Source of the DNA: Solirubrobacterales bacterium
GTDB lineage: Bacteria; Actinomycetota; Thermoleophilia; Solirubrobacterales; 70-9
NCBI GenBank assembly: GCA_021155855.1
Contig: JAJNAZ010000001.1
Span: forward strand, 186,001 to 250,000
Direction: 5' to 3'
Length of the DNA: 64,000 nucleotides
Shown here: piece by piece, positions 33,613 to 36,774 of the stretch
Position numbering within the stretch: the stretch's first letter is position 1
How the letters are laid out: each line of letters opens with the position of its first letter
The notes under the pieces: generated by a model
What the model saw: the letters and a program-made list of their open reading frames with translations, nothing else
Database searches by the model: none
Told to the model about the DNA's origin: nothing
Position numbers and translations under genes: made by a program

Positions 33613-35613
33613 TCACTCGACCAGCCGAACCTCGAGCTGCGGCGGCGCCGCGATCGCGCCGGCGCCGGCCATCAGTCCTAGGATGCGCGCGACGTAGGCC
33701 CGGGTCTCGGGATACGGGGGAATGCAGGAACAGGCCTCGACCGGGGCCGGACCGGCGTTGTAGGCGGCGAGCGCGAGCGGGACCTGGCCGAACTGAGCGA
33801 GCAGGTCGCTCATCAGGTGGGCCTGCGCGTCGATCGCGGCCTCGGCGTCGAACGGGTCGTCGAGACCGTAGGCGGCCGCGGTTCCGGGCATGAACTGGGC
33901 GATCCCGTTCGCCCCGGCGGACGAGACCGCGAACGGGTTGAAGTTCGACTCCGCCATCAGCTGGGCGGCGAGCAGGGCGGCGGAGACATTCCAGCGGCGA
34001 GCGGCCTCGGCAATCGGCTTGCGGTACCGCGCGGGCACGTACGCCGGCAGGCCGCCGCCGGCACTCGCCGACCCGGCGCCGTCGCCGCCGTCGGCGCCGA
34101 CGTTGTCGCCCGCCGCCGAGCATGGCGCCGGCCCGCGGCTGTAGCCGAAGTGCCAAGGCTCCCACGCGTACCGCTTCAGAAAGCCGAACCGGCCCGCGTT
34201 CGCGGCCAGCCATCCATAGGCGCTCGGGGGACCGAGGTCGAGCTCGGTGGCGCAGCGGTGCAGTGAGGTGCCCGGGGGCGCCACCCATTGAGGGTCGGGG
34301 TTTTGGGCGAACAGCGCCGCCTGCTCGGCGTCGGAGCGAAAGCCCGAGTTGACGATCAGCGACAGCCCTTCGGTGCGGGCGGCGGCGGCCGCGAGGCGGT
34401 CGAAGGCCGCGGCTACGTCCGGTCGCATCGGCACCCCCTGGCGATGGGCCAACGGCCCCGCGTAGCCGCCGCCGCTGGCGGTCGCGGGTGCGCCGGCGGG
34501 CGCCGCACCGCCCGCCGGCGGCACCGCCTCAGCCTCCGCCTCGGCGGCGACCGGCAGTTCGCCAAGCGCTCCGACCGCGAGCGATGCGGTGACCTCTGCC
34601 CGCACGCGCAGCGGCGCGAACGAATCGGCGTCGGGAAACTCGACCTCCAACCTCCTGGGCGCGATCCCATTGCGCTCTCCCGCTTTGCGGGCCGCGCGTG
34701 AGGCGCGGCGGAGGTACTCACTGGTGCCGAGGTGTGCCGGGTTCACCGAGCCATCCGGACGCCGCGCGGCCGTGAACAGGCGCTCGAAATCGTCGCGCAT
34801 CGAGCGCGCGGCCGAGAGCGCAACGAGGTCGGCCGCCCGTTGGGTGCGCGACTTGCCGGTGGTGGCGCCGCCGAAGGCGGCCAGCAGCAGCGCGCAGAAG
34901 ATCAGCGCCAGGACCCCGCCGAGGGCGAGCGGCAGCGCCTGACCCGAGTCGGCGGCCAACCGCGTGGCGAGGCGGGCCGTCCGCCGCCCGGGTGGACCCG
35001 GCCCCGATCCGCCGGCGAGGCCGCGAGCGAGTCGCGTCGCCCGCCGGGAGGCCTCACCGCCTGGATCGATTCCGGCGAGCGCGCGGCGAGCCGCCACCCG
35101 ACCCGGGGGGCGCGGCGCGACGCGCACCCGCAGGCCGGCGGCTCGCAGCTCCGCGACGGCAAGCGCGGCGAGCGCCCGCTGGGCGGGAAGCTCAGCGCGA
35201 ACGAGAGCTGCGCTCGGCGCCACGGTGTCGGACTCGAGCGCCGCCCGAACGCCCGTCGGCGGTAGGTGTACGAGCGCCGCTCGCTCGGGCCCCGCCGCAT
35301 CGAGAGCCAGCCCGAGCCGCTCGAGCCACTCCTCGCCCCCGAGCGGCACCCAGACGAGCCGCCCCCGAGCCGCGGCCTCGAGATCCGCGTCGCGCAGCCT
35401 TTGCTCGAGCGAGCGCGAGGAGTCCGAGGCGAGCATCGTCGGGCCGCGGCTCTGTCCCGCTCCCACCTCAGCCAGCAATACCGCACCGCCGGCGCCGGCG
35501 CGTCGCTCGGCGTTTTCGGCCGTCGCCAGCTCTACCGCGACGGCGGCCGCCGTCGCCAGGCCCCCACGGGCGCCGGGCAGCTCGGTCGAGAGAATCAGGC
35601 GAGGCGCGCTCAA
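33613..35613 (-). CDS. TadE-like membrane anchor fused to VanY carboxypeptidase and SLT lytic transglycosylase
   Basis: A single 666-residue frame with four parts. Residues 1-220 are not recognised (alpha/beta-like, no Walker motif). Residues 220-270 form a TadE/TadG-like segment, DSGQALPLALGG plus a membrane helix (228-249) and QRAADLVALSAARSM. Residues 395-492 are a peptidase M15B (VanY/DacB) domain with H452, D459 and EPWHF (H488). Residues 545-645 are a lytic transglycosylase domain, catalytic E555 in QLMAESNFNP and GIAQFMPGT, AAYNAGP. The TTG start overlaps the TGA of the upstream TadE gene. Both a peptide-cleaving and a glycan-cleaving activity would sit on one anchored chain. Confidence 0.85.
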   Translation of the reverse strand: MSAPRLILSTELPGARGGLATAAAVAVELATAENAERRAGAGGAVLLAEVGAGQSRGPTMLASDSSRSLEQRLRDADLEAAARGRLVWVPLGGEEWLERLGLALDAAGPERAALVHLPPTGVRAALESDTVAPSAALVRAELPAQRALAALAVAELRAAGLRVRVAPRPPGRVAARRALAGIDPGGEASRRATRLARGLAGGSGPGPPGRRTARLATRLAADSGQALPLALGGVLALIFCALLLAAFGGATTGKSRTQRAADLVALSAARSMRDDFERLFTAARRPDGSVNPAHLGTSEYLRRASRAARKAGERNGIAPRRLEVEFPDADSFAPLRVRAEVTASLAVGALGELPVAAEAEAEAVPPAGGAAPAGAPATASGGGYAGPLAHRQGVPMRPDVAAAFDRLAAAAARTEGLSLIVNSGFRSDAEQAALFAQNPDPQWVAPPGTSLHRCATELDLGPPSAYGWLAANAGRFGFLKRYAWEPWHFGYSRGPAPCSAAGDNVGADGGDGAGSASAGGGLPAYVPARYRKPIAEAARRWNVSAALLAAQLMAESNFNPFAVSSAGANGIAQFMPGTAAAYGLDDPFDAEAAIDAQAHLMSDLLAQFGQVPLALAAYNAGPAPVEACSCIPPYPETRAYVARILGLMAGAGAIAAPPQLEVRLVE

Positions 35614-35963
35614 CCCGCATCCTCCGGGAGCCGCACCCAGGCGGTCGAGCTGACCTCGAGCGCGCGGCCGACCGCCGCCAGCGGTGACGGCGGGTGCAGG
35701 CGGACGGTCAGCCGCCCACCCTCGACCTCGACCTCGACCCTGTCGCCGGTCCAATCCGGCAACGCCGCCTCGACCGCGGGCTCGGCCGGCAGATCCGAGG
35801 CGAGCGCGATCGCACCCGCCTCGGCGGCACCGTCGGCGAGGGTCAGGGAGTACCCGGCGGCGAGTAGCTGCAGGCAGAGGACGGCCGCAAGCAGGATCGC
35901 GGGGATTGCGGCGAGCGCTTCGACCGATGCCTGGCCGCGCTCATCCACCGGCGGCCTCCCCAA
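35610..35963 (-). CDS. TadE-like pilus assembly protein
   Basis: The 117-residue protein starts with DERGQASVEALAAIPAILLA, the GQASVE leader-peptide-like block and hydrophobic helix typical of TadE/TadF pseudopilins, then an extracytoplasmic beta-rich domain. No pilus ATPase or assembly gene is in the window. It overlaps the second TadE-like gene upstream by 23 nt and the fusion gene downstream by 3 nt (TTGA), so the three form a tightly coupled unit. Confidence 0.78.
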   Translation of the reverse strand: MGRPPVDERGQASVEALAAIPAILLAAVLCLQLLAAGYSLTLADGAAEAGAIALASDLPAEPAVEAALPDWTGDRVEVEVEGGRLTVRLHPPSPLAAVGRALEVSSTAWVRLPEDAG

Positions 35964-36288
35964 CCTCCAGCGCTGATGCGGCCCGAACCGCGATGTCCGG
36001 CACCCCCGGCAGCACTGCCGGCGCCCTCACGGTCACCTCGACCGGCCCGGCCGTTTCGATCTGAGCTCCGCGCTCGAGCCATAGCGGCAGCGCGCTGAGC
36101 GCGGCACGCTCGGCGTCGCCGCCCACATGGGCCGCCCGGGCGCCGGCGCGCGCCGCGTCGCCGGCGCTCCAGAGCGCGTAGCCGGCGATCGCGAGCTGCG
36201 CGACGGCGAGCAGGACGCAGATCAGGATCGGCGCCACCGCGACCAGCTCGGCCGCCGCCTGCCCGTCCTCCGCGCGATCGCGTCGCAT
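35941..36288 (-). CDS. TadE-like protein, first gene of the cluster
   Basis: A 115-residue TadE family member: EDGQAAAELVAVAPILICVL gives the GQAAAE block and single helix, then ARAGARAAHVGGDAERAAL and a small domain. ATG 36288 is preferred over the upstream start at 36366 because GGGAG lies about 9 nt before it. It shares its arrangement with the next gene; the two may form a minor pseudopilin pair. Confidence 0.75.
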   Translation of the reverse strand: MRRDRAEDGQAAAELVAVAPILICVLLAVAQLAIAGYALWSAGDAARAGARAAHVGGDAERAALSALPLWLERGAQIETAGPVEVTVRAPAVLPGVPDIAVRAASALEVGEAAGG

Positions 36289-36420
36289 GACGCGACACTC
36301 CCACCGGGCGCTTCGCCCGGGTCGCCATCGACGTGCCAGAAGGCGATCGATTCGTGCGCGGATCACGGTCGGCTCCCCGTCCGCCGCGGCGAGTCGGAGC
36401 GCTTGGAAACCGGCGTCAGC

Positions 36421-36774
36421 TCAGTAGCTCGACCGCGCCTCGGTCCAGACCCTGACGATTGCGAAGATCGAGGCGCCGAGGACGGCGAGCCAGATCAGCA
36501 GGCCGCCGCCGCTCCCGGTGAGCTCGTCGGTGCCCGCGATCATCAGCACGATCGCGCCGATCGCCGCCAGCAGCAGCGCCCGCTGGCGCTCCTCGAGCTG
36601 CAGGTAGGTGAACCGGTACTGGCGGTACAGCTGCCAGCCCATGAATCCGATCAGGGCGAGAAAGGTGATGCTGAGGGCGGCGACGATCGCCCGCGCGGCG
36701 TTGTCGCCCCCCGGAACGACGGCAACGATCAACGCCAGCACGGCGATGATCGCGATGTTGCGAGCCACGCGCAT
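36421..36774 (-). CDS. Three-helix membrane protein, function unknown
   Basis: The 117-residue protein has hydrophobic helices at about 6-21, 30-50 and 65-81 plus a fourth near 90-107, and a short basic loop RQYRFTYLQLEERQRAL. No family is recognised. TAGCCT (36784-36789) lies 9 nt before the ATG, which supports the start. Neighbours give no clue to function. Confidence 0.7.
   Translation of the reverse strand: MRVARNIAIIAVLALIVAVVPGGDNAARAIVAALSITFLALIGFMGWQLYRQYRFTYLQLEERQRALLLAAIGAIVLMIAGTDELTGSGGGLLIWLAVLGASIFAIVRVWTEARSSY

Follow-up and report, generated by a model that had tools for sequence, protein, structure and literature searches.

Introduction

The proteins described so far that most resemble the subject of this study are the TadG/PF13400 proteins of Tad (type IVc) pili and the Rv3654c-type proteins of Actinobacteria, which share with it a PF13400 segment, one membrane helix and a position after tadE. 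That subject is a gene on the reverse strand, at positions 33613..35613, of a 64,000-nucleotide stretch of a Solirubrobacterales genome (assembly GCA_021155855.1, contig JAJNAZ010000001.1, positions 186,001 to 250,000; the whole stretch is called the window hereafter), whose 666-amino acid product joins a TadG-like segment to two domains of cell wall enzymes. According to a 2025 structural paper on the Tad alignment complex, neither a peptidoglycan hydrolase nor a lytic transglycosylase had yet been reported for the Tad pilus, which may recruit such enzymes from other processes (PMC12307814); a review has pointed out that TadZ and TadG curiously alternate in the Tad systems of monoderms (PMC6916266).

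Specialised lytic transglycosylases of flagella and secretion systems, such as VirB1, FlgJ and BB0259, likewise connect an SLT domain with a machine that spans the envelope, and the flagellar BB0259 model is the best NCBIfam match of the fused protein, although below the cut-off of that model. Those enzymes are nevertheless separate proteins of other machines, whereas the SLT domain in the window is part of a pseudopilin-like component that also carries a VanY domain. With VanY/M15B carboxypeptidases the protein shares the SxH...D and ExWH motifs and the PF02557 domain, but its VanY domain belongs to a pilus-type membrane protein and no resistance context was seen. VanY-type M15B enzymes are usually carboxypeptidases trimming stem peptides and less often endopeptidases cutting cross-links. 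All the component families are already known and it is their combination that appears to be new: literature searches, in which subscription journals were largely outside coverage, found no description of the fused architecture, in agreement with a first-pass annotation of the window that had been aware of none.

A TadG-like protein bearing two wall-enzyme domains

The reading frame is open over 666 codons and begins with a TTG codon, chosen also by an independent GC-frame gene caller, that shares bases with the TGA at which the preceding tadE-like gene (35610..35963) ends. Comparison with Pfam placed Tad, VanY and SLT domains in this one frame, all above the curated cut-offs (the scan started one codon downstream, its residue numbers being one lower). 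The Tad segment (PF13400, residues 224-270, 34804..34944, E 4.3e-5) has one transmembrane helix and carries a motif of the QRAADL type. The VanY domain (M15B, PF02557, residues 396-491, 34141..34428, E 8.8e-13) presents the metal-binding and catalytic residues of its family as H452, D459, E485 and H488, and the SLT lytic transglycosylase domain (PF01464, GH23-type, residues 533-625, 33739..34017, E 9.9e-20) presents the catalytic glutamate as E555-S556 together with the motifs GIAQFMP and AYNAGP. The first-pass annotation had described one polypeptide with these two enzymes and the catalytic residues H452, D459, H488 and E555, which is correct, and E485 can be added to them. Its anchor had been called TadE-like; that the anchor is of a pilus type holds, yet its family is Tad/TadG (PF13400, Rv3654c-like) and not TadE itself. 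A canonical tadG from family f7 (locus L157) has the same PF13400 segment, but neither a VanY nor an SLT domain was detected in it by Pfam; compared with this gene, the window protein adds both domains after the pseudopilin-like part and may have a TadZ-like domain fused in front.

Alignment of 14 diverse orthologues showed no variation at H452, D459, E485, H488 and E555, nor at Q258 and D262 of the Tad segment. PF13400 was detected at E ≤ 0.01 in 4/7 further orthologues and above the cut-off in 3/7. Among the eight most distant orthologues the VanY residues were invariant and E555 was missing in one only (L063 6211-7371), from the small genome G055, where the SLT domain is partly deleted, E555 and its surrounding residues are gone and the VanY domain is intact. 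This loss of E555 and the adjoining SLT stretch with retention of VanY is what would be expected if the two domains were non-catalytic wall-binding modules that anchor a Tad complex to peptidoglycan, an explanation that we regard as very improbable given the invariance of the VanY metal-binding and catalytic residues in every sequence compared and the presence of E555 in all but L063.

Structure models of the full chain (AlphaFold, seven sequences) had a mean predicted local distance difference test (pLDDT) score of 48 and resolved neither the amino-terminal domain nor VanY. The Tad region was the best-modelled part of the chain from the start of the helix onwards, with a long helix (226-280), then another helix and beta strands reaching residue 364 (pLDDT mostly 60-90), and appears pilin-like in outline. 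For the SLT region, modelled with low confidence, the top Foldseek matches were GH23-type enzymes and lytic transglycosylases (E ~0.01). The stretch preceding the membrane helix is Arg/Lys-rich on average and residues 1-215 precede the helix, for which reasons the amino-terminal domain is probably cytoplasmic and the enzyme domains probably face the wall.

The same frame is intact in a sister genome, at 71% identity. Within 81 close genomes (own included) a match was found in 74/81 and a strong one (E ≤ 1e-65) in 72/81, nearly all of them to the Tad-VanY-SLT part, and a sample of 300 genomes of the class gave strong matches in the four families of Solirubrobacterales and in one further family, f10. 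Among 396 genomes of the phylum, the matches from outside the class covered the SLT domain only, and named records of the architecture are from Solirubrobacterales, among them the cultured Conexibacter arvalis; within the genomes sampled it is hence restricted to this order and one other family of the class. The protein is a TadG-like one that covalently bears two wall-enzyme domains and has been kept across an actinobacterial order, and cultured species such as C. arvalis make any part it has in pilus assembly directly testable. Two artefactual or foreign origins were rejected. A frameshift or assembly error, which would have split the gene, is contradicted by the independent presence of the fused frame within this genus as well as in others; a phage origin found no favour because matches in PHROGs were nearly all to the SLT domain and the conserved uvrC-rapZ synteny argues for vertical descent.

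Tad genes divided between two loci

The fused gene stands directly beside genes for TadE-type minor pilins. The first of them (35610..35963, reverse strand), whose stop overlaps the start of the fused gene, resembles the NCBIfam model TadE_Rv3655c (E 1.8e-4, below cut-off) and has homologues in 52 related loci; the second (35941..36366, reverse strand, with a probable ATG start near 36288) passes the Pfam TadE threshold (PF07811, E 8.1e-6), so the coupling to two TadE-like genes claimed in the first-pass annotation is upheld. This second gene is the sole TadE-family match of the genome. The only T2SSE-type ATPase of the genome is a TadA (TIGR03819, E 1e-105) encoded on another contig (contig 61) together with two TadB/C proteins and CpaB (TIGR03177, E 2e-15), and neither tadE nor tadZ was found beside these genes. 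A prepilin peptidase is also present; together with TadA, TadB and TadC, it gives the genome, on contigs other than that of the window, a set of components expected of a Tad system. Because the tadA-tadB-tadC-cpaB cluster without tadE lies on one contig and the only TadE-family match in the window, the operon appears to be the minor-pilin half that has become detached from a Tad system, one in which the TadG-like protein has gained two wall-active domains. Judging from the sequences, we consider it moderately probable that the fused protein is a TadG-like component of a Tad pilus or pseudopilus system that carries its own wall enzymes. Two further features of contig 61 may be mentioned: the CpaB/RcpC homologue (L052 10547-13032) accompanies tadABC in a presumed single-membrane bacterium, and genes for a macro-domain protein, a sensor-kinase-like protein and a response regulator lie alongside.

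Across the class sample TadA was detected in 111/133 genomes with the hydrolase and in 72/167 without it (Fisher p 4e-13, kinship uncontrolled). Two genomes at least 95% complete, G064 with no T2SSE match and G079 with no T2SSF match, lack the hydrolase too. Several observations weigh against a Tad component. The window block was looked for beside tadABC and never found there, 22 genomes carry the hydrolase without a detected TadA (some are probably incomplete, and 6 candidates per genome were scored), and some genomes of genera g38 and g40 have Tad but no fused enzyme. Moreover, neither HMM (hidden Markov model) nor six-frame searches, which are insensitive to short pilins, found a convincing match to a major Flp pilin in the own genome.

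The first two of these observations, together with the location of the gene by the housekeeping pair uvrC-rapZ, would fit a general wall-remodelling enzyme for growth or division in which the Tad segment is a mere membrane anchor with no role in a pilus. We think this unlikely, as the gene follows two TadE-like genes, of a family known from Tad systems, the genome has no other TadE-family match, and the tadA locus is without tadZ where the gene for the amino-terminal domain occurs at the hydrolase locus. The lack of a detected Flp pilin, on the other hand, would suit, in place of an extended pilus, a pseudopilus of Tad descent that takes up DNA or secretes protein and for which the hydrolases would open the wall, as would the presence of two tadE genes and the finding that transformation of Micrococcus luteus requires tad genes, including distal open reading frames with weak PF13400 similarity (PMC4322843). 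Small pilins are easily missed by the searches used, and to this alternative we assign a low probability, somewhat below that of the remodelling enzyme.

If the fused protein is a TadG-like component with wall enzymes of its own, its membrane helix and pseudopilin-like domain would place it in the inner-membrane Tad assembly complex, where its partners would be the TadE-like minor pilins of the two upstream genes and, from the other contig, TadA, TadB, TadC and the CpaB-like protein. The putative TadZ/CpaE-like domain in the cytoplasm would probably hold the enzyme on the TadA side or at a particular place in the cell. Outside the membrane the VanY domain may trim stem peptides, leading to less cross-linking, and the SLT domain may cut glycan, both actions together resulting in a local opening of the wall for passage of the filament. 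We put forward only tentatively, well short of a firm proposal, the idea of a dedicated wall-opening device at the base of the Tad pilus. In it a positioning domain of TadZ origin, a pseudopilin of the TadG type and two wall enzymes would form a single chain across the membrane, and the machine would be positioned and the wall opened in the same molecular event. Such a protein may be the missing tool that lets the Tad pilus cross the cell wall. The first-pass annotation had supposed a dedicated tool that opens the wall for a surface structure through peptide and glycan cleavage; the surface-structure context has gained from the Tad link (tadABC-cpaB in trans, with tadZ missing there), while the opening of the wall by peptide cleavage appears weaker, since VanY enzymes are more often carboxypeptidases and their cleavage may mean reduced cross-linking.

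The amino-terminal domain as a candidate degenerate TadZ

Residues 1-215 (34969..35613) have no match in Pfam or NCBIfam, and in this respect the first-pass annotation, which knew of no family for residues 1-220, was right about the HMM libraries; a trace through intermediates nevertheless leads to a probable degenerate TadZ/CpaE-like domain of the MinD superfamily that lacks the Walker A lysine. In many relatives these residues are the product of a gene of their own (the N gene; about 180-260 residues), which follows tadE and precedes the hydrolase gene, frequently with stop/start overlap. A tree built from the enzyme domains shows 5 changes between fusion and separation, of which supported branches force at least 3. 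Comparison of profiles linked the family of the window domain to the genes of f2 (E 4.6e-8), these to the genes of f3 (E 7.6e-10), and the latter to TadZ/CpaE (E 3e-6, or 1.5e-4 once the columns were cleaned). The scores of the window family against f3 and of f3 against TadZ exceeded all 60 column-shuffled controls.

The gene content of the loci is reciprocal: where an N gene accompanies the hydrolase, the tadA locus has no tadZ. A TadZ ATPase (TIGR03815-like) adjoins tadA in 7/7 loci of f10, where, moreover, tadE directly abuts the Tad/VanY/SLT gene with no gene between in 3/4 loci read. One also stands beside tadA in the one locus read from each of f7, f11 and g38, all three without the fused enzyme. 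It was found beside tadA in none of 20 Solirubrobacterales loci of enzyme-bearing genomes, where the weak matches to the TadZ profile cover the receiver part only (positions up to 114 of 358). The profile chain and this reciprocity provide good but indirect support for the domain being a relocated, degenerate TadZ, and in view of both a wholly new family is no longer the simplest reading of these residues.

Against such an ancestry, the direct comparison of the window family with the TadZ profile was negative and did not exceed all of the shuffled controls. Models of the domain had pLDDT values mostly below 45 in the full chain and of 40 for an f3-type N gene, too low for a fold to be read from them. 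The f3 profile gave chance-level matches only against the sequences of solved structures. The likeness to TadZ/CpaE and Ssd (TIGR03815) consists of the weak profile similarity through intermediates and the genomic complementarity; the window domain differs from them in being fused to a membrane protein and in having no recognisable P-loop, the Walker A lysine not being found in it and the f3 intermediates showing a P-loop-like GCGAST loop without the lysine. Should the relationship be real, the fused protein may unite in one chain TadZ and TadG, the components that alternate in monoderm Tad systems.

A separate observation concerns a genome of genus g38 within Solirubrobacterales (G251, L158), which has no hydrolase and whose tad cluster includes a TadZ with an intact P-loop and nearby TadE-like and Flp-like genes. 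This suggests that one Tad type was replaced by another in the genus.

Conserved neighbourhood and variants

Upstream of the tadE pair lies a conserved partner, a small multi-helix membrane protein (36421..36774, reverse strand) whose homologues share this neighbourhood in 37 loci; the f10 loci have a similar gene. The order-wide arrangement is phoU-pit-small membrane protein-tadE-tadE-[N]-Tad/VanY/SLT-...-uvrC-rapZ, with frequent stop/start overlaps, and f10 has the operon block as well, again followed by uvrC and rapZ.

At its carboxyl end the fused protein has a tail with the consensus LEVRLV (33616..33636, reverse strand), kept across the order, preceded by a variable linker and predicted to form a strand (661-664). 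In the remaining one of the four f10 loci read, that of G179 (L160 7043-7839), a gap of about 800 bases separates tadE from the start of the Tad-VanY-SLT gene, the two genes overlapping in the congeneric G178. In two other loci a further gene is inserted after the N gene and before that for Tad-VanY-SLT. The one in G288 (L168 8646-9161) encodes a CAP-domain (PF00188) protein, and the one in G052 (L036 7701-8513) a protein with both an M23 peptidase domain (E 3.8e-22) and an FlgD-Ig domain, by its predicted family a third wall enzyme within the same operon.
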